Source: Dehalococcoidia bacterium
Lineage (GTDB): Bacteria; Chloroflexota; Dehalococcoidia; DSTF01; JALHUB01
Direction: 5' to 3'
DNA length: 64,000 nucleotides
NCBI GenBank assembly: GCA_030018455.1
Contig: JASEFU010000001.1
Location: forward strand, 373,545 to 437,544
The position numbers were made by a program, and so were the translations under genes. The notes beneath the pieces were generated by a model. It was given only the letters and a program-made list of their open reading frames with translations, was not told the DNA's origin and did not search any database. Each line of letters opens with the position of its first letter. Within the stretch, counting starts at the first letter, position 1. Shown piece after piece: positions 45,499 to 56,048 of the stretch.

Positions 45499-47658
45499 TT
45501 AGCGGCAGTCGCACTCCGCCGCTGGCTCCACCAGGTTCGAGTTCAGCGCCACGAGCACGGCGTCGAGCGAGCTCATCACTCCGTCCTTGTTTACGTCGAA
45601 GGCGGGACTGACGACCATCTCGGGGTCGGGGATAGGGTTCCCGTCGTTGGGGTCATCGTCCTGAACGCCGTGGACGCGTTGGAGGACGCGGACGTAGTCG
45701 AGGGGGCTGGCGACGCTGTCGCCGTTTACGTCGGCCACCTCCTTGTCGTCGTCACAGATGTCGTCATCCGTGTTGCGGTCAATCGGCGACGTGCCCCATC
45801 CCATGACCTCCATCGCGTCGCTGATGCCGTCGCCGTCGCTGTCTTTGACGTAGTCGCTGGAGCCGAAGAGGGCCTCGATATCGGCGGCAAGACAGTCCCT
45901 ATCGTTGTCGACGATGCCGACGCACGACGGCTTGCTGCCCGGATCAAGCGGGTTCGTGCCAGCAATGACCTCGGCGCCGTCCAGGGCGCGGTCGCCGTCC
46001 GTGTCGGCGACGACGGGGCTTGTGCCGGCCGTCGCCTCGTCGATGTCGCTCAGCCAGTCGTTGTCATCGTCGTCGTCGCAGGCGTCGCCGAGCGCGTCGC
46101 CGTTGGGGACGGTGACGTCGTCGCCAGCGATGACGGGCCCGTTGGCGATGGGCAGGGCGTCCGTGTTGAGCTGATCGGGGTTGGCGACGAACGGGCAGTT
46201 GTCGGAATCGTCGGGCACACCGTCCTCGTCGGCGTCGGGCGGGTAGAGCTCGATCGGCTCGCCGGGCGTCAGGTCTTTGCCCGCGAAAGCGGGGTAGCCA
46301 GTCGCGTAGCGGTAAGCGCGGAAGACCCAGTTGGAGCCGGGCGGGTCGCCCTGATAAACGGGGCCCTGGTCGTTCACAGGGTTAACGTAGCGCCAGACGG
46401 TTTCGCCGGCGGAAGTGACCTCGAAGATGATGCCGGGGAAGCCCGAGCAGATGAACGTGTTGCCGTTTGGAAGGCGGTGCGCGCCGGATATGATGGCGGA
46501 AAAGAAATCGCTGGGATTTGGCGCGGCGTACACCCACGAAGGGTCTTGCGGCCCGTAGGCCTGGCCGGGTGTCAGGGCGTAGTTCCCGGAGCCGTCCACA
46601 GGAGGCACCAGCTCCTCGACGGACGAATACCACGTGCCCGGACGCCCGAGGCCGTTGTTGAACACGAGGATGTTCCCCGCTCCCGATAGTCCGGGCCTGA
46701 TCCACTGCGCGTCATGCTGGACCCAGAACTTCTGATCGTCGGCGTCTCCGGCGTCGTAGGACTGCGGGTTGCCCCAGCGGTAGAGGAGGTCGCCGCCCTT
46801 GCCGCTGTTGCCGCCCGAGTGTCCGGCGGCTTCCGCGGTCGTTGTGCTGTGATCGATCACCCAGATCTCGCTGAAGTGGCGGACGCTGAGCATGATTTGG
46901 TCGAGTTGCGGGTTGTAATCGACGGCGTTCATGTGCAGCCAGTCGGCGTACCCGGTGTAGCAGGTGAATGAGCACGAGAAGTTGAGGTCGATCAGCTCGG
47001 GATGGTCGGCGACGACGCCGTAATTCTCCTTCGCGGGGTCGTAGTCCTGCACCAGGTGGTCCCACACGTGCCATTCCCAGACGACGTTGCCGCCGGAGGG
47101 CAGCACGGGCTCGACTTCGATGATCATCTCGGAGTAGATTTTGCCGTCGATGAGGAGATCGAGGTCTCTACCCGCGGCGATCGCTTCCGCCTCCGTCTTG
47201 TACTCCCAGGCGATGAGAAGCACGTTGCCGTTCGGCAATACGGTGAAGTCGTGGTGCATGAGGTGCTCGTCGCTCGGGTATGTGTACTCCCAGAGCAGGG
47301 TGCCGTCCCAGTCGTACTCCTGGATCTTGACGCCGTCGGCGCCGTTGAGGGGCAGACCGGGGTCGATGCTTTCCGTTGGCCGGGCGAGGCGCATGAGATG
47401 GCCGTTCTCCAGCAGACGGGCGGTGCCCCCGGGAAGCCAGTCGTGCTGCCAGGAATGGACAAGCCGGCCCTCGTTGTCGATGAGATACGTTGTGTCGTAG
47501 GACATGGGGGCGAACAGGGTGTAGCCGGCGAAAGAGCCCTCTGCGTTCAGGAAGAGGCCGACGGTCTGCTCCTGCCCCTGGAGGGTCGCCGGGCCTAGCC
47601 CGGCCCCGAGTACCAGCGCTGCCAGGACCAGAAGCTGCGCTATTCTTGGAGCGCGCAC
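45499..47658 (-). CDS. Secreted arylsulfotransferase-like protein with calcium-repeat and dockerin-like tail
   Basis: The protein is about 719 aa from a GTG with GGGAGG five bases upstream. A signal peptide (QLLVLAALVLGAGLGPATLQG) is followed by a propeller-like ASST-family domain to about residue 480, with repeated YLIDNEGRLVHSW, GTLLWEYTYPSDEHLMHHDF, DWLHMNAVDYNP, WVQHDAQWI and SGAHRLPNGNTFICSG; conserved His residues in these repeats suggest a catalytic site. The tail holds thrombospondin-3-like calcium repeats (DADEDGVPDDSDNCPF, DTDGDRALDGAE) and two dockerin-type DVNGDS and DVNKDGVMSSLDAV segments. It probably works outside the cell, but whether it transfers sulfate is not shown. Confidence 0.78.
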   Translation of the reverse strand: MRAPRIAQLLVLAALVLGAGLGPATLQGQEQTVGLFLNAEGSFAGYTLFAPMSYDTTYLIDNEGRLVHSWQHDWLPGGTARLLENGHLMRLARPTESIDPGLPLNGADGVKIQEYDWDGTLLWEYTYPSDEHLMHHDFTVLPNGNVLLIAWEYKTEAEAIAAGRDLDLLIDGKIYSEMIIEVEPVLPSGGNVVWEWHVWDHLVQDYDPAKENYGVVADHPELIDLNFSCSFTCYTGYADWLHMNAVDYNPQLDQIMLSVRHFSEIWVIDHSTTTAEAAGHSGGNSGKGGDLLYRWGNPQSYDAGDADDQKFWVQHDAQWIRPGLSGAGNILVFNNGLGRPGTWYSSVEELVPPVDGSGNYALTPGQAYGPQDPSWVYAAPNPSDFFSAIISGAHRLPNGNTFICSGFPGIIFEVTSAGETVWRYVNPVNDQGPVYQGDPPGSNWVFRAYRYATGYPAFAGKDLTPGEPIELYPPDADEDGVPDDSDNCPFVANPDQLNTDALPIANGPVIAGDDVTVPNGDALGDACDDDDDNDWLSDIDEATAGTSPVVADTDGDRALDGAEVIAGTNPLDPGSKPSCVGIVDNDRDCLAADIEALFGSSDYVKDSDGDGISDAMEVMGWGTSPIDRNTDDDICDDDKEVADVNGDSVASPLDYVRVLQRVHGVQDDDPNDGNPIPDPEMVVSPAFDVNKDGVMSSLDAVLVALNSNLVEPAAECDCR

Positions 47659-47739: not shown

Positions 47740-47962
47740 TTCCTTACAGCGCGCGAAGCAGGTATCGCCGCACCGCGGTGCGCTGGAAGGCGAGCGCGTG
47801 GCCAGCCGGGAGACGAAGGATGTTGGAGGCGCGTATCCAAGTGGTACTGCTCGGTGGCGCTGTTCAATACGCTGAAGCTGGCCAAGCTCATCGGCGCCCG
47901 TAGAGACAGGCCATCTGCTGGCAACCGCGGTGCCCCTCAGCGAGGGGCCCCGCGGCTTTACA

Positions 47963-49102: not shown

Positions 49103-49501
49103 ATGGTTGACGTACGGATCGATACGAGGGGCGTGCCCAAGGCTCCCGTCTACGAGGAGGCGCAGACGGTTCACCACCGTCAGTCCCTCGCCGCGCCCGA
49201 TGCCGCAGACCCCGAGTCCGCGGCCGTCGGCGTCAATTGCGCCGGCTACCGCCGCGTCCGCTTCGACATCGACACCACGGGCAGCAGCGGCCTCACCGCC
49301 CTCAAGGTGCAGATACTCAACTGGAACGCGGCCGCCGGGAAGTACTTCCGCGGCGCCGAACGGGAATTTAGCGAGGCGGAGCTTGCCGCCAACCCCGTGC
49401 CCGCCCTCGAAGCGGAGGTGCGCGGCGCCACCGTCTTCCTCAAGGTCGTGTCGGCGACGGCGACCGCGCTGTCGCTGAACGTGTACGCCACGCCGAGCTA
49501 G
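49103..49501 (+). CDS. Phage-like cassette gene 1, unknown (beta-rich)
   Basis: This 132-aa protein is not one I can name. It starts MVDVRIDTRGVPKAPVYEEA and continues with a beta-rich domain (GYRRVRFDIDTTGSSGLTAL, VQILNWNAAAGKYFRG, GATVFLKVVSATATALSLNV) like small phage virion or decoration proteins. AGGTGA lies five bases before the ATG. It opens a row of eight same-strand genes with short spacers, and is six bases from the next one. Confidence 0.65.
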   Translation: MVDVRIDTRGVPKAPVYEEAQTVHHRQSLAAPDAADPESAAVGVNCAGYRRVRFDIDTTGSSGLTALKVQILNWNAAAGKYFRGAEREFSEAELAANPVPALEAEVRGATVFLKVVSATATALSLNVYATPS

Positions 49502-49507
49502 GAGCGC

Positions 49508-49978
49508 ATGATGGGGCGGCTGCGTCTTTTCGGTGAGCTTATCGAAGCGGGCGGCGCTATCGAGGGCGTCGTCGGCGAAGGCGGCGGTGGCCACCAGATC
49601 GCGCGCGTCGTCCGCACGAGCGGCGACTACCAGACGAGCAGCACGTCGTTCGTCGATATCGACACCGATAACCTCGCTATCAACCTCACCACCGGCGATA
49701 GCTGGGTCATGCTTGTCCTCGCGGGCTCCCTCTACGTGAGCAGCATCCAGTACGCGTGCATCGACTTCACGATTGACGGCGAACGCGTGGGAGGCGCGAA
49801 GGGCGTGCAGCAAGCGCAGGCGGCGTACATGCAGTCGGCGCACTTCGTCTGGCTGGCGCAGGTAGCGGCGGGGGGCCACGTCTTCCGGCCGCAGTGGCGG
49901 GTGACCGGCGGCTACGCCAACCTGCGCGCCAGCGACGCCGAGACGCCGCTCCTTTTCGCCGTGATAGAGATGCAGTAG
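49508..49978 (+). CDS. Phage-like cassette gene 2, probable tail/fibre-type protein
   Basis: The 156-aa protein has a short N-terminal Gly-rich part and then a beta-sandwich-like domain (DYQTSSTSFVDIDTDNLAIN, GDSWVMLVLAGSLYVSS, CIDFTIDGERVGG, and HVFRPQWRVTGGYANLRAS). This pattern is frequent in phage tail-fibre and appendage proteins found after the baseplate genes. Two ATGs occur in a row; the second has a better distance to GGAG. Identity is inferred from style and context. Confidence 0.6.
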   Translation: MMGRLRLFGELIEAGGAIEGVVGEGGGGHQIARVVRTSGDYQTSSTSFVDIDTDNLAINLTTGDSWVMLVLAGSLYVSSIQYACIDFTIDGERVGGAKGVQQAQAAYMQSAHFVWLAQVAAGGHVFRPQWRVTGGYANLRASDAETPLLFAVIEMQ

Positions 49979-49986
49979 GAGACGAG

Positions 49987-50373
49987 ATGGAGATCAGGGT
50001 CGAAAAGCCGCTGCGTTTGGACCAGCTCACCGACGAGGTGCAGAAGGCCCTCCCGGGCGAGGACGTCGACTCCCGCATTCACGGTCTCAGCGCCCGTTTT
50101 CTCGACGACGGCGGGCGGTTGCTCCTCATCCACACGGCGGGCGCGGATCTCGACGCCGGAGAGGAAGCGACGGCACGGCAGGTCGTCGACGCGCACGTGC
50201 CCGACTCGAAGTGGGGGCTGAGTGCCGATCAGAAGGCGCTCGCGGCCATCCTCGAGCGGCCCGCAGGCACTCTTTCGACGGCGGAGGTCGAAGCCGCGCT
50301 GCGGCTCGCGGCAAGAACGTTGCGGCTGACGGAAGTCCCGCTGTCGCCCCCGGCCTATGACCAGCCCGTCTAG
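49987..50373 (+). CDS. Phage-like cassette gene 3, unknown
   Basis: The 128-aa protein starts MEIRVEKPLRLDQLTDEVQK and is acidic, with an N-terminal alpha/beta part (GLSARFLDDGGRLLLIHTAG) and a helical C-terminal part (STAEVEAALRLAARTLRLTE). No family is recognised. The ATG follows the previous stop by eight bases, and a longer frame upstream is not used. Co-transcription with the flanking virion-like genes is the only clue to a role. Confidence 0.6.
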   Translation: MEIRVEKPLRLDQLTDEVQKALPGEDVDSRIHGLSARFLDDGGRLLLIHTAGADLDAGEEATARQVVDAHVPDSKWGLSADQKALAAILERPAGTLSTAEVEAALRLAARTLRLTEVPLSPPAYDQPV

Positions 50374-50388
50374 CAGGAGCGAAGAACA

Positions 50389-51024
50389 GTGAACCTGACC
50401 GAAATGAGAACTATGGTCCGCCGCGACCTCCACGACGAAGACCCCGCCGACTACCGCTGGTCGGACGATGAGCTCGACCGGCACATCGCGCGGGCGCTGC
50501 GGGAGTTGAGCCTGGCGATACCCCTGGAAGCGATGGCCACGCTGACGGCCGCGCCCGACAGCCGCGACGTCTCGCTGGCGTCGCTGGCGGACCGCGTCTG
50601 CGTAGAGGCGGTCGAGTACCCCGTGGGGGAGTATCCGCCAGCGTACGTCGGCTTCTCGCTGTGGGGCGACACCCTCACCCTGCTCGTCGATTCGCCGCCG
50701 CTCGCCGCGCACGACGTCAACGTCTTCTATGGAAAGCTGCATACGCTTGACGAGAGCGGCTCGACCCTGCCGCCGAAGCTTGAGGAGATCGTCGCGACGG
50801 GTGCGGTCGCCTACGCTGCCCTGGAGTGGGCGAGCTTCGCCGTGAACAGGATCAACGTGGGCGGCAGCGACGTGTGGCGCAGCTATCACCTCCTGGGCCA
50901 GGAACGGCTCTCGGCGTTCGCCGCCGCCCTTGCCCGGCACGGACGCCGCAGCGGCGTGCGCAGCCGCCGGCTCTACAGCGCTGCCCGCGCGCTCGAGTCC
51001 CAAACCGATTTCGCCGGTTCCTGA
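50389..51024 (+). CDS. Phage-like cassette gene 4, head-tail adaptor-like protein
   Basis: The 211-aa protein begins LTEMRTMVRRDLHDEDPADY and RWSDDELDRHIARALRELSL, the opening seen in phage head-tail connector/adaptor proteins (small helical proteins on the portal). A beta-rich middle (FSLWGDTLTLLVDSPPL) and helical end (WRSYHLLGQERLSAFAAALA) follow. The start is GTG with AGGAG upstream. If it is an adaptor, the portal it should dock to is missing nearby. Confidence 0.65.
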   Translation: MNLTEMRTMVRRDLHDEDPADYRWSDDELDRHIARALRELSLAIPLEAMATLTAAPDSRDVSLASLADRVCVEAVEYPVGEYPPAYVGFSLWGDTLTLLVDSPPLAAHDVNVFYGKLHTLDESGSTLPPKLEEIVATGAVAYAALEWASFAVNRINVGGSDVWRSYHLLGQERLSAFAAALARHGRRSGVRSRRLYSAARALESQTDFAGS

Positions 51025-51036
51025 GTCCGTTAATCG

Positions 51037-53007
51037 ATGCGTTATCTCAGCCCTTCCCTGCTCGCCGCGCAGCAAAGCGCAAGCGCCGTCCCCCACGTGC
51101 GGGTGGAGGTGCGGGAGCGTATCGCGAATACGGCGCGTCCGGCGTGGGAGCGCCTCTACGCGGGCGACGAGCCGGACCACCATCACGCCGCCGCCATGCC
51201 CGGCGACGGCTCGCTCGTGCGGGCGCGGGTCGACCCTTCGACGGGCGCCCTGTACCTTCAACGGACGGTTGCCCCGGGCCCCGGCTCCGACTTCGAGGTG
51301 TGGTCGTATCAGGCCACGGTCTCCGCCTCCGCCGGCATCTCGGCGACGGCCGCAGGCGCGAACGTCCTCGTCTTCTACGTCGATACGGACGGCACGACCG
51401 TGAAGTGCATAGAGAGCACCGATTACGGCGCCTCGTTCGGCGGGCCGGCGACGGTCGTCGCGGCGGGGAGCGCCGTGGGCTGGATGGCGTCGGGCCTCAA
51501 GAGCGACGGCGCCGCCCTGCTTGTCTACTCCGTCGGCGCCGTGGTCTACGCCGTGAAGCGAAGCGGCGGATCCTGGGGGACGCCCACCGCCTGGAGTAAC
51601 AGCGTCGCTTCCGTAACGGGCCTCGCCTGCTGCCGCGTCGTCGACTTCGACGTCGTCGTCGCCGGCGCCGATGCCGCGGGCTCAGCGAAAGTGTGGACAG
51701 CGATGTACGGCGACGGCTTCAACCGGCCTCCCGATACTTGGTCTGCCCTCAGAGAGATCGCCCGCGCCGATAGCGGCTCCTCCGTGGAGTTTCGCTGCCC
51801 TTCCCTCGACCGCGCCGACTGCTACCGCGTGTCTTTCATCGAGAAGTACAGCGGCAGCCAGGCCTACTCGCGTCCGTTGTGGTCGAACCTCCCTCCCCTG
51901 GGTGACCTCGTCGCCCACACATGGCGCGAACCCGTCCCTTTCGACCTGAGCAGCGAGTACGGCGTCGCCATTACTCACGCGGGCGACTACGCCTGGCTTT
52001 CGACGCCCTCCGGCGTCTGGCGGGCCCCGCTCGTCACGCCGCCGCTCGACCTGACGGACGACGTGCTCGACGTGCAGATGGAGTGCGGCCCGTTCGACGG
52101 CCGGCTGAGGGTCGTCCTCAGGAACGACGATAGCCGCTACTCCGACCTGTCGCCCACCATAATCAAGAGGGGATCGCAGGTCGACATCAGTCCCGGCTTC
52201 GTGACAAGCGCCGGCGCGGAGGTCTCCGAGGGACTTCGCTTCTGGATCGAGGGATGGGAGCACGCGAGCGCGCGCGGCGGAGCCACCTTAACGCTGTTCG
52301 CCCGCGACGGCTGGTCACTGATCGAGGGCTGGCGGGCGCGGCGTGAGTACGCCTGGGCCGCGGGAGACGCCAGCGTCTATCAGATACTCAGCTTCGTTTT
52401 AGCGCGGGCCGGCCTCCAGTACGGTTGCCGCACCAGCAGCGATACCCTGGGTTCGTTGCGGCCCGCCTTCGCCATCCACCCGGGAGAGGACGGACGGACA
52501 GCGGTGCGGCGGCTGCTGGCGATGGTGCGCGACGTAGTCTTGATGTCGGGCGAGAACGCCGTCGGCATCGACCCGCTGGCGGACGACGACGCAGTCTACT
52601 CCTACGGCGGCGGGCACCCGGTGATCAGCGGCCGCTACGCCGTCCGCACGCCCGGCCACAACCGCGTGCAGGTGTTCGGGCGCGGCGTCATGATCGATTC
52701 CCTCGACTGGGCTGGCGTCGCCGACATCTACGACCGGTTGGCGCAGGTGCATGACGTCAACCTGACGACGGTGGACGAGGCGCAGGAGCGCGCCATTGCC
52801 GTGAGGCGCGAGGCGGAAATGGCGTCACTGGCAGGCGAGGTCGTTGTGCCCGTGAACTGCGCCCAGGAGCTGTACGACGTCGTGACGGTAACCGCCGCCG
52901 CCGCCGGCCTCGCCGCCGCTCGACGGCGCGTGATGGGCGTGGCGCTCCGTTATTCGAGGAGTGGACACGCCGTCTATGAGATGCGCCTGGCTCTGGGCGC
53001 GCCGTAG
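51037..53007 (+). CDS. Phage-like cassette gene 5, large tail/baseplate-like protein with propeller-type repeats
   Basis: The 656-aa protein is the largest of the cassette. Residues about 70 to 330 contain repeated beta-strand blocks (GSLVRARVDPSTGALYLQRT, GANVLVFYVDTDGTTVKCIE, DGAALLVYSVGAVVYAVKRS) like BNR or beta-propeller blades. Residues about 350 to 656 resemble a tail hub or fibre-attachment protein (RLRVVLRNDDSRYSDLSPTI, LTLFARDGWSLIEGWRARRE, then VNCAQELYDVVTVTAAAAGL). Such propellers often bind sugars. The ATG has no strong ribosome site, 12 bases after gene 4. No tape measure, tube or sheath gene accompanies it. Confidence 0.65.
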   Translation: MRYLSPSLLAAQQSASAVPHVRVEVRERIANTARPAWERLYAGDEPDHHHAAAMPGDGSLVRARVDPSTGALYLQRTVAPGPGSDFEVWSYQATVSASAGISATAAGANVLVFYVDTDGTTVKCIESTDYGASFGGPATVVAAGSAVGWMASGLKSDGAALLVYSVGAVVYAVKRSGGSWGTPTAWSNSVASVTGLACCRVVDFDVVVAGADAAGSAKVWTAMYGDGFNRPPDTWSALREIARADSGSSVEFRCPSLDRADCYRVSFIEKYSGSQAYSRPLWSNLPPLGDLVAHTWREPVPFDLSSEYGVAITHAGDYAWLSTPSGVWRAPLVTPPLDLTDDVLDVQMECGPFDGRLRVVLRNDDSRYSDLSPTIIKRGSQVDISPGFVTSAGAEVSEGLRFWIEGWEHASARGGATLTLFARDGWSLIEGWRARREYAWAAGDASVYQILSFVLARAGLQYGCRTSSDTLGSLRPAFAIHPGEDGRTAVRRLLAMVRDVVLMSGENAVGIDPLADDDAVYSYGGGHPVISGRYAVRTPGHNRVQVFGRGVMIDSLDWAGVADIYDRLAQVHDVNLTTVDEAQERAIAVRREAEMASLAGEVVVPVNCAQELYDVVTVTAAAAGLAAARRRVMGVALRYSRSGHAVYEMRLALGAP

Positions 53008-53017
53008 GAGGAGTGCG

Positions 53018-53230
53018 ATGCGCGTACGCAGGGCAGAGATAAAAGCTTTCGATTCCGGCGCCCACACGGCGACGGTGCAAATGGCGGGCAGCCTCTCCGT
53101 GTGGCTGTCGAGCGTCCCCGTGGCCCGAAACATCGACGCCGCGGAGGTCATCGTTGGGCGGAAGTGCGCCCTCATCTTCTTTGATGACACCAACCCCGAC
53201 GACGCCGTTATCGTCGCGGTCTACACCTAG
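53018..53230 (+). CDS. Phage-like cassette gene 6, small beta-barrel-like protein
   Basis: The 70-aa protein (MRVRRAEIKAFDSGAHTATV, then SLSVWLSSVPVARNI, then GRKCALIFFDDTNPDDAVIV) looks like a single OB/beta-barrel fold similar to the N-terminal part of phage baseplate spike proteins. GGAGGAG precedes the ATG directly after gene 5. The short length without any spike domain is unusual. Confidence 0.6.
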   Translation: MRVRRAEIKAFDSGAHTATVQMAGSLSVWLSSVPVARNIDAAEVIVGRKCALIFFDDTNPDDAVIVAVYT

Positions 53231-53248
53231 CGTTGAGGAGACCAGACC

Positions 53249-53575
53249 ATGGCCGAGCCGATATTCGCCGTTCTCGCCCTTGCCTTCCTGGCGGAAAGCC
53301 TCACCGAGTACCTGTTCGCGGGGCCGCTCTCGGCGCTGCGCATGCCGGCGGCGGTCACGCGATACGTGGCGGTGGCGGTCGGCGTGTTGCTTGCGTGGGC
53401 GTATGACCTCGATATCGTGCGCGACCTGCTGGGGCTGAGTCCGCGGCCGCCGCTGCTGGGCGTCGCGCTCAGCGGGGTGATACTGGGGCGGGGCGCGAGC
53501 TACGTGCACGACTTCTACTCCAGCTACCTGCGGCCCGCGGAGCCGGATCGGGAGGAGGCGAAGGATGCGCGCTGA
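53249..53575 (+). CDS. Phage-like cassette gene 7, holin-like membrane protein
   Basis: The 108-aa protein has about three hydrophobic segments (IFAVLALAFLAESLTEYLF, VTRYVAVAVGVLLAWAYDL, LLGVALSGVILGRGASYVHD) and a charged C-terminal tail (RPAEPDREEAKDAR), the layout of small phage holins. No endolysin is next to it. Its stop overlaps the following small gene. It could open a pore for release or be used for secretion. Confidence 0.65.
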   Translation: MAEPIFAVLALAFLAESLTEYLFAGPLSALRMPAAVTRYVAVAVGVLLAWAYDLDIVRDLLGLSPRPPLLGVALSGVILGRGASYVHDFYSSYLRPAEPDREEAKDAR

Positions 53576-53735
53576 CAGGGTCCGTCGGGCGCGGCGCGCG
53601 CCGTCGCGGGCGAGGCCGCCGTCGGACAAAGCGCCGCCGCCGCTGCAGGACGACGACGTGGTGGAGGACGAGCGTCTGCGGGGTGTTGTGGTGCGCGCCG
53701 GCGCCGAGATTGCCGCCGCCCTCTGGGAGGACTGA
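53565..53735 (+). CDS. Phage-like cassette gene 8, 56-aa basic/acidic protein
   Basis: A short frame starts at an ATG preceded by GGAGGAGGCGAAGG and overlaps the holin-like stop by 11 bases. The product has a basic N-terminal half (MRADRVRRARRAPSRARPPS) and an acidic second half (LQDDDVVEDERLRGVVVRAG), ending AALWED. The ribosome site and the overlap support translation; function is unknown. Confidence 0.45.
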   Translation: MRADRVRRARRAPSRARPPSDKAPPPLQDDDVVEDERLRGVVVRAGAEIAAALWED

Positions 53736-53825
53736 GTCCGCCCGTCGTTCTTGGCTCATCATTGCCCGTAATCCCCTCGCGCTATACGCTACGGGAAATT
53801 CTGCGCCATGGCAGGGGGGATGGGG

Positions 53826-54611
53826 ATGAGACCGCATCACGAAAAGGCGATACAGAAGCTGGTAGAGCACTTCTCTAACGATGAGACGTGCCTCGCTATC
53901 ATCGTCGGCGGCTCCGTCGCCAAGGGGCTGGCCCAGGAGGGTTCGGATGTCGACGTCATGCTCGTTGTCACCGACGAGGTGTTCCGCGAGAAGTGGGAGC
54001 AGAACAAGCTCGTATACTTCTCCCAGGAGTTCTGCGACCACCCCGGCTGCTACATCGACGGCAAGATCGTCAACCTCGACTACCTGCGCGCGGTCGCCGA
54101 GCGCGGGAACGAGGTGACAAGGGCGGCGTTCGACGGCGCGTTCATCGCCCACTCAAAGATCGACGGCCTCGACGAGATAATGAGCCGGATACCCATCTAC
54201 CAGATGGACCAGCGGCAGGAGAAGATACAGGCCTTCTACGCCCAGTTCGAAATCGCCCACTGGCTGGTCGGCGAGGCGGAAAAGAGGGACGACAGGTACC
54301 TGCTTGACCGCGCCGTGTCCGACCTCATCCTCTACGGGGGCAGGCTCATCCTCGCCCACAACTGCGTGCTGTACCCCTACCACAAGCTGTTCATGGTCGC
54401 GCTCTGGAACGCCCCCGAGAAGCCCGACAACCTGATGGCGCTGGTCGACGCGCTCCTCAAAGAGCACACGGCCGAGAACGCGAGGGCGTTCTACGAGGCG
54501 GTCAAGAACTTCCGCTTCTGGAACGAGGCGTGGGAGCTGCCCGCCCTCCGCTTTATGAAGGACACGGAGCTGGCATGGCTTGAGAACCGCGCCTACATCG
54601 GCGACATCTAG
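53826..54611 (+). CDS. Nucleotidyltransferase-domain protein (Pol-beta/MNT-like)
   Basis: The product is 261 aa from the third possible ATG, which has AGGGGGG at a good distance; ATGs 6 and 18 bases upstream are also in frame. The catalytic motif is IIVGGSVAKGLAQEGSDVDV (GGS followed by DxD), and a helical C-terminal half follows (YLLDRAVSDLILYGGRLILA). Related proteins transfer AMP or another nucleotide to small molecules, toxins or proteins; length and the large helical domain suggest an aminoglycoside-nucleotidyltransferase-like fold. A role cannot be assigned. Confidence 0.8.
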   Translation: MRPHHEKAIQKLVEHFSNDETCLAIIVGGSVAKGLAQEGSDVDVMLVVTDEVFREKWEQNKLVYFSQEFCDHPGCYIDGKIVNLDYLRAVAERGNEVTRAAFDGAFIAHSKIDGLDEIMSRIPIYQMDQRQEKIQAFYAQFEIAHWLVGEAEKRDDRYLLDRAVSDLILYGGRLILAHNCVLYPYHKLFMVALWNAPEKPDNLMALVDALLKEHTAENARAFYEAVKNFRFWNEAWELPALRFMKDTELAWLENRAYIGDI

Positions 54612-54706
54612 CGCTGCTGGCTTGTCCTCTTCCGCGTTGACACCCGCTGTTGCCTGACGTACGCTTGCCCTCGATAGACGGCAGTCTCATCGCAAGGAGC
54701 GTGCGT

Positions 54707-54997
54707 ATGGCGACGGAACGGCAGTACCCCAAGGTCGGATTCAAGATCATGGCCACGGTCAAGGGCGTCAAGGGCACGTGCTCCGCCGGACACAAGCCCG
54801 GCGACGAGTTCGAGATAAGCGCCCACAACACCGGCGGCCTTTGCGGCTTCTTCTACCACGATATCTTTCCTTATCTCGTCATGCTCCAGTTCGGCGGACA
54901 ATTCCCGCCCGAATGGGGCGGCGGCGATACCCTCACCCTCCAGTGCATGGACCGCTACAACGAGGTCAGCCTCGAGCTGCGGCGCGTCCGCGAATAG
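54707..54997 (+). CDS. TIGR04076-family small protein
   Basis: The 96-aa protein has the hallmark [17 protein letters not shown] near 22-38, [21 protein letters not shown] near 44-64, and a late [16 protein letters not shown]. The family has conserved Cys, His and Asp residues that could bind a metal; its function is not known. AAGGAG lies six bases before the ATG. It is 13 bases before ruvB and probably shares its transcript. Confidence 0.85.
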
Positions 54998-55010
54998 GCA
55001 AGGAGGCAGA

Positions 55011-56048
55011 TTGCAGGAACGGATCCTCTCCGGCAGGCCGCGCGAGGAAGACGTCGCGCTGGAGACGTCGCTGCGGCCGCGGCGCCTCGACGAGTACATA
55101 GGACAGGACAGGGTCAAGGAGAACCTGCGCATCGCCATGGCCGCCGCCCAGATGCGGCGCGAACCGCTCGACCATGTCCTCCTCTACGGCCCGCCCGGGC
55201 TGGGCAAGACAACCCTCTCCTACATCATCGCCGCCGAGATGGGTGTGAGCGTCCGCGTCACCTCCGGGCCCGCGATCGAGCGGCCCGGCGACCTGGCGGC
55301 GATACTCACGAACCTCCACCGCGAGGACGTCCTCTTCATCGACGAGATACACCGTCTCGCCCGCGCTGTCGAGGAGATCCTGTACCCGGCGATGGAGGAC
55401 TTCGCGCTCGACCTCGTGCTCGGCAAGGGGCCGGGCGCGCGCAGCGTCCGCCTCTCGCTGCCGCCGTTCACGCTCGTCGGCTCGACGACGCGCTACGCGA
55501 TGCTTAGCCCGCCCCTGCGCGACCGCTTTGGCGCCGTCTACCGCCTCGATTTCTACGATGTGGCGGCGGTCTCCGACATCATCCGCCGCAGCGCCCGCAT
55601 CCTCGACGTCGAGATCGAGGAGGGCGGCGTGCGTGAGATCGCGCAGCGGGCCCGTGGGACGCCGCGCGTGGCCAACCGGCTGCTCAAGCGGGTGCGCGAC
55701 TACGCGCAGGTGATGGCGGACGGGGTGATCACGGAGAGCGTCGCCGTCGACGCCCTGGCGCGGCTCGAGATCGACTTCCTTGGCCTGGACGAGGTCGACC
55801 ACAAAGTGCTGCGGACGATAATCGAGAAGTTCGACGGCGGGCCCGTGGGGCTCGACACGATAGCCGCCTCCATTTCGGAAGAGGCGGACACGATAATGGA
55901 CGTCTACGAGCCGTACCTCATGCAGGTGGGCTTCCTTCAGCGGACGCCGCGTGGCCGCGTGGCGACCCGCCTCGCCTACGAGCACCTGGGCCTGCCGCCG
56001 AAGGGCCCGGCGCCCTCTCCCCAGGCCGCCCTCTGGGACTCGCCGTAG
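55011..56048 (+). CDS. ruvB: Holliday-junction branch-migration ATPase RuvB
   Basis: The 345-aa AAA+ ATPase has [19 protein letters not shown], Walker [22 protein letters not shown], Walker [25 protein letters not shown], sensor [17 protein letters not shown], and the C-terminal winged helix ([38 protein letters not shown]). RuvB hexamers drive branch migration with RuvA, and RuvC then resolves the junction; neither partner is in the window. The TTG start has AAGGAGGC upstream and fits the family start. Confidence 0.96.

Follow-up and report, generated by a model that had tools for sequence, protein, structure and literature searches.

Few gene transfer agents (GTAs) are known, to our knowledge, outside the Alphaproteobacteria, and searches of open-licence papers, preprints left out, found none for the Chloroflexota. 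The latter phylum comprises the Dehalococcoidia, a class to which organohalide respirers belong, as do many uncultured lineages from subsurface and marine habitats. The GTA of Rhodobacter capsulatus (RcGTA) and other GTAs are built from phage-derived head-tail genes and a packaging enzyme, which are inherited vertically and distributed over several loci (PMC11841831), all of which recur in the gene set reported here. The window analyzed is a stretch of 64,000 nucleotides from a Dehalococcoidia genome, in which an earlier note, made from the sequence alone, had described a cassette of tail and holin genes. We estimate at roughly 0.6 the probability that this cassette belongs to a domesticated Dehalococcoidia mini-phage, short-tailed and passed on vertically, of which it would form the tail-tip half and which most likely works as a GTA. 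This candidate GTA is probably independent of the Rhodobacter type. Compared by description, the Dehalococcoidia set differs from RcGTA by its SPP1-type portal, its phrog_212 capsid, and the lectin-like propeller of its hub. RcGTA has a tail tube and a tape measure, neither of which was recognized in the Dehalococcoidia set.

The tail-tip cassette

Eight open reading frames are borne by the plus strand of the window between positions 49103 and 53735, with the tight spacing previously described. The first, g1 (49103..49501, 132 aa), is jelly-roll-like. The second, g2 (49508..49978, 156 aa), is kept in G001, a genome of the same family as that of the window, and occupies a slot taken in relatives by variable fibre-type proteins. 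No role was assigned to g3 (49987..50373, 128 aa), which displays 43% identity to its counterpart in G001. The portal-tail adaptor, g4 (50389..51024), matched PF24175 SU10_adaptor in Pfam (E 1.6e-9) and phrog_399 in PHROGs (E 4.6e-5), in agreement with the adaptor-like protein proposed in the earlier note. It is followed by g5 (51037..53007, 656 aa), a tail hub of the gp27/gp44/VgrG type with an inserted propeller, and by g6 (53018..53230), a 70-aa tail-tip protein. The sequence style of g6 suggests an OB fold, as in a spike base of the gpV/gp5 N-terminal type; its relatives are conserved immediately 3' of the hub gene, and in the L300 phage this 70-aa sequence forms one protein with a fibre-like region. 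The product of g7 (53249..53575) belongs to phrog_20258, a family of unknown function (E 7e-11), and contains three hydrophobic stretches as read from the sequence, as expected for the holin-like membrane protein already pointed out; relatives of g7 are also present in two other loci (L034 and L180). The last frame, g8 (53565..53735), encodes 56 aa and is a doubtful gene. Searches of Pfam and PHROGs returned nothing significant for g1, g2, g3, g5, and g8. Downstream from the cassette (53808-56048), the window contains a nucleotidyltransferase-like gene, a gene for a small conserved protein (54707-54997), and ruvB; the latter two are likewise found downstream from the cassette in G001 and in L235.

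Selection on the cassette was assessed by comparison with G001. The dN/dS ratios reported here are NG86 values because YN00 failed by saturation for most pairs. The ratios ranged from 0.10 to 0.37 for g1 to g7, including 0.16 for g1, 0.21 for g2, 0.28 for g4, 0.22 for g7, and, with a dN of 0.53 and a saturated dS, 0.10 for g3. Only g8 gave a high value (0.76, at 50% identity), and the ratio near 1 across the block that would have spoken against a host function was not observed. By these comparisons, g1 to g7 are well-supported genes and g8 is doubtful. Codon use was host-like, as had been noted (codon-frequency correlation of 0.93; GC3 of 0.87 versus 0.83 ± 0.06 for the host).

The AF2 model of g5 (pLDDT 93.8, pTM 0.89) has the fold of a baseplate hub with a propeller, as anticipated for the 656-aa protein. 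Residues from ~17, and then ~340-656, aligned with the gp27/gp44/VgrG hubs (Foldseek, E ~1e-14; VIA-align), with Z scores of 24-26 and an rmsd of ~3 over ~300 residues. In contrast to these hub proteins, g5 carries a six-bladed lectin/sialidase-like propeller inserted near its N terminus (residues 42-334), which matched fucose lectins with Z scores of 25-26, or 23-26 if sialidases are included. The predicted fold suggests that the propeller may bind sugar. For g1 (pLDDT 88), the closest folds were XepA (Z 10.3) and YomS (Z 9.7), followed by the neck of phage Milano (Z 8.2) and the jelly-roll cement protein of BPP-1 (Z 7.5). On this model, g1 is likely a head decoration or cement protein, or a neck protein; its relatives are located directly 3' of the capsid gene in several genomes. 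When the PDB was searched by sequence with the hub, the adaptor, the capsid, and g6, no relatives came up apart from weak matches to sialidases.

Head and packaging genes on a second contig

The earlier note had reported the absence of capsid and packaging genes, which is wrong at the level of the genome. Searching the window's own genome with profiles built from the relatives' genes revealed, on contig C5, genes for the terminase large subunit (TerL; C5:164263-165648, 479 aa), the portal (C5:166093-167376, an open ORF, 438 aa), and the major capsid protein (C5:170440-171321, 295 aa). In order, this stretch (L141) encodes a membrane protein of 104 aa, a protein of 52 aa, TerS-like (122 aa) and XhlA-like (73 aa; weak Pfam match, E 0.016) proteins, TerL, an HTH protein (131 aa), and the portal; past a 447-aa gene on the opposite strand, it continues with a coiled coil resembling a scaffold (171 aa) and with the capsid. 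The coiled coil is presumably a scaffold, based on a weak match to phrog_233 (E 0.042), its coiled-coil style, and its place before the capsid. In relatives, the portal matched SPP1_portal (E 5e-21), the terminase phrog_7579 (E 3e-9), and the capsid both Phage_capsid (E 3e-8) and the phrog_212 major head protein (E 7e-78), which is of the HK97 type. The Walker A, Walker B, and nuclease acidic residues of TerL were invariant in a three-sequence alignment, and the copy in the window's own genome keeps them. The TerS-like proteins had no Pfam HTH match, but the copy in the L312 phage has a similar make-up, and a distinct protein with an HTH is encoded between TerL and the portal. A small terminase lacking a recognized DNA-binding domain has been noted for known GTAs (PMC11841831). 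The host genome harbors phage-derived structural and packaging genes, as do the genomes encoding known GTAs.

The statement that no capsid lies near the cassette also failed, since the window contains, on the plus strand (47758..47901) and 1.2 kb upstream of g1, a decayed remnant of the 3' part of a major capsid gene, which is not itself a gene. It matched positions 247-294 of the capsid profile (E 1.7e-5), and the DNA at 47792-47900 is 79% identical to the intact capsid gene of C5 and 83% identical to that of G001. Contig C5 terminates ~215 bases past its capsid gene within a dockerin-like 3' gene end (G000:C5:171421-171543), which shares 90% identity across 123 bases with positions 45503-45625 of the window. 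The genome carries about six long versions of this dockerin-like end (45499-45700 in the window), with 74-90% identity. Because C5 ends in the repeat and the capsid remnant stays in the window, the halves either parted by recombination at the repeat or were separated by an assembly broken or misjoined there. Whichever applies, the genome holds both halves. An integrase together with a complete head-tail set, as in an intact temperate prophage, was not found in one locus in the window or on C5, which stops just past the capsid.

In relatives, the two halves are contiguous over ~12-14 kb. In several of them (L235, L250, L169, and L182), g1 comes right after the capsid gene, and the genes for the adaptor, the hub, and the OB protein come next. 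Comparison of these loci indicates that this order is likely ancestral. The idea of a conserved block under purifying selection and devoid of head genes was thus right with respect to selection and wrong with respect to the head genes, which adjoin the cassette in relatives.

Distribution, descent, and selection among relatives

Four core genes, encoding the hub, capsid, TerL, and portal, were searched for in 148 genomes of relatives. TerL was detected in 94 of these genomes, the portal in 83, the hub in 78, and the capsid in 72; at least one core gene was present in 101 genomes and all four in 54, usually as one copy per genome. The core genes co-occurred strongly (Fisher P 1e-11 to 7e-23, values that ignore relatedness). 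Nearly all named matches were from Dehalococcoidia or Chloroflexi, with one record labelled Deltaproteobacteria. Many genomes of the class are devoid of the set, and four (G030, G065, G091, and G105) contain fragments only, indicating that loss also happens. In several families, the cassette is located upstream of ruvB. Relatives of the hub were also found in other classes of the Chloroflexota. There (L356-L375), hub-adaptor-OB-TerL sets, several of them with TerS, are accompanied by another kind of portal and by a head protein fused to a protease, and some of these sets carry an endolysin and a holin. The association of hub-adaptor-terminase sets with a different head suggests that domestication of the hub module may have happened repeatedly.

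Patristic distances in trees covering 17-28 genomes were compared with those of rpoB by Mantel tests with 2000 permutations. The correlation was 0.76 for TerL, 0.69 for the portal, and 0.62 for the hub (0/2000 permutations in each case), and was weak for the capsid (0.34; 0.016), which evolves at about half the rate of rpoB. The hub tree recovered four family pairs (f1, f17, f36, and f37) and one trio (f4); f51 and f22 were not recovered. For near pairs, dN/dS was 0.05-0.16 for the capsid, 0.10-0.28 for TerL, 0.06-0.27 for the portal, and 0.16-0.37 for the hub, with dS often near saturation. Purifying selection, proposed as a check in the earlier note, thus acts on all core genes (0.05-0.37). 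Vertical inheritance under purifying selection, as for known GTAs, is indicated by these results, with a weak agreement between the capsid and rpoB. Trees resembling that of rpoB, purifying selection, and host-like codon use together support the previous suggestion of a domesticated particle that is not a fresh prophage.

The genes are distributed over several loci, as for known GTAs, in G083, G135, G075, and G140. In the complete chromosome of G083, the portal-hub cluster is at 304-310 kb and TerL at 189 and 351 kb; the latter are two separate TerL genes (G083:C1:189260 and 351263), both distant from the cluster. In the complete chromosome of G135, the portal-hub cluster is at 168-178 kb and TerL at 1,260 kb. 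In that of G075, the capsid and TerL are at 1,400-1,405 kb, the portal at 1,289 kb, and the hub at 1,213 kb. The set of the window's own genome is on two contigs, a separation that may stem from the assembly.

Phage relatives and a candidate gene transfer agent

Integrases were sought in 2,056 called genes from 120 sources with two phage integrases as queries, and replication genes were judged by eye. The integrases of the window's own genome lie far from both halves. Among the scanned genome loci of the class, integrase homologues were adjacent to a cluster in two cases only. The first, L197_23, was rejected as a phage integrase since it is XerC. The second, L192_14, is a phage-type integrase located 1.9 kb past the hub on the opposite strand, and is a real exception. 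A large replication-like protein is encoded together with this integrase directly past the hub (L192:13893-18509). In the scanned genome loci of the class, L192 excepted, no genes for self-mobilization were recognized with the cluster, as is the case for GTAs.

Two elements, L311 (15.4 kb, 127-bp terminal repeat, integrase PF00589 with E 4e-19, amidase-like match with E 3e-4) and L362 (14.9 kb, from a genome bin, 55-bp terminal repeat, integrase phrog_1 with E 4e-45), look like complete phages. They share the TerL, portal, scaffold, capsid, adaptor, and hub families of the Dehalococcoidia set, and no tail tube or tape measure was recognized in them. They differ from the set by their integrase, their terminal repeats, their gene order, and, in L311, the amidase-like protein. 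Integrases are also found together with the same structural genes in L299, L300, and L312. The existence of these five integrase-bearing phages indicates that the set belongs to a real family of small phages, and most clusters in genomes of the class look like an integrase-free, domesticated branch of this family. In the hub tree, L299-L306 and L310 are on long branches beside L147, and L311 is among divergent Chloroflexota copies. IMG/VR provided 68 matching contigs; most of the 19 that were annotated show the same cluster, the exceptions being L299, L300, L311, and L312, and IMG/VR matches alone therefore do not prove mobility. Two viral contigs of 41-45 kb (L313 and L314) contain distant relatives of the hub and adaptor (25-29% identity) close together. 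A tblastn search of 50,697 phage records with g5 gave no match. Phages with a phrog_212 capsid (Pseudomonas phages Ab18 and PaMx11, and others) have a major head protein that is ~44% identical, but differ by genomes of 46-62 kb and by the lack of a g5 relative among these records.

Given the phages of ~15 kb with these structural genes and the integrase of L192, a part of the clusters could be young prophages. The main rival reading is a slowly decaying prophage family, in which ordinary temperate Chloroflexota phages of ~15 kb enter the Dehalococcoidia occasionally and then decay, the window containing half of an old defective copy. This reading, which we consider unlikely but still a serious contender, accounts for the integrase-bearing phages, the integrase beside the hub in L192, the patchy presence and fragmentary copies, and the capsid remnant in the window. 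It is at odds with purifying selection on every core gene, agreement with rpoB at the order and family level, the usual single copy per genome, the position upstream of ruvB in several families, the lack of an adjacent integrase in nearly all scanned genome loci of the class, and the presence in complete chromosomes of genes that are scattered yet intact.

Domestication could also have given rise to something other than a GTA: particles that lack DNA or deliver proteins, a weapon of the bacteriocin type, or a device on the cell surface made of the hub, adaptor, and fibres. The hub fold of g5 is common to the spikes of eCIS, T6SS, and R-type pyocins, and the tail-tip genes of the window are apart from the head genes in the assembly. 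However, the sheath (PF04984) was absent from the whole genome in a search that matched three controls, as the earlier note had supposed from the window, and a tailocin or eCIS was rejected on that basis. The tape measure PF10145, the one tape-measure family covered, was likewise absent genome-wide, with seven controls matched. The T4 gp19-like tube PF06841 had no match in the genome, an uninformative result because no control matched either. No tail tube or tape measure was recognized in the clusters. In addition, TerL and the capsid are at least as strongly conserved as the hub and co-occur with it, making a role of this kind improbable. The capsid-less appendage or secretion device of the earlier note, with unrelated genes on C5, would fit the location of the halves on different contigs but is rejected as very improbable in view of the head genes on C5, the capsid remnant upstream of g1, and the adjacency of capsid and g1 in relatives (the four loci cited above and others).

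Considering again the candidate GTA, a small head of the HK97 type would be assembled from the scaffold and capsid on the portal, and TerL would pack DNA into it, not necessarily that of its own genes. The adaptor would join the portal to a trimer of the hub, and the OB-type protein would close the tip in the absence of a tube. The propeller and variable fibres could bind glycans on the surface of recipient cells, and the small membrane proteins could help lysis or release. Counting against this reading, no endolysin was recognized in the clusters of the window's own genome, the capsid tree agrees weakly with that of rpoB, and the set is missing or fragmentary in many genomes of the class. Packaging and transfer of DNA by the set are predicted from its gene content. 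The set cannot spread as a unit, because an adjacent integrase is usually absent and the genes are scattered, and the particles may instead carry the host's own DNA between cells. This cargo is the least certain step of the proposal; it is suggested by the scattering of the genes, the usual lack of an adjacent integrase, and long-term conservation. These features are also listed for known GTAs (PMC11841831). A more specific version, in which a Chloroflexota GTA unrelated to the Rhodobacter type, tube-less, and with a lectin-propeller hub docked directly on the portal adaptor has persisted from an early stage of the class, is put forward tentatively, as less probable than not. If the proposal is true, a class-wide DNA-transfer particle would bear on gene movement among the Dehalococcoidia.
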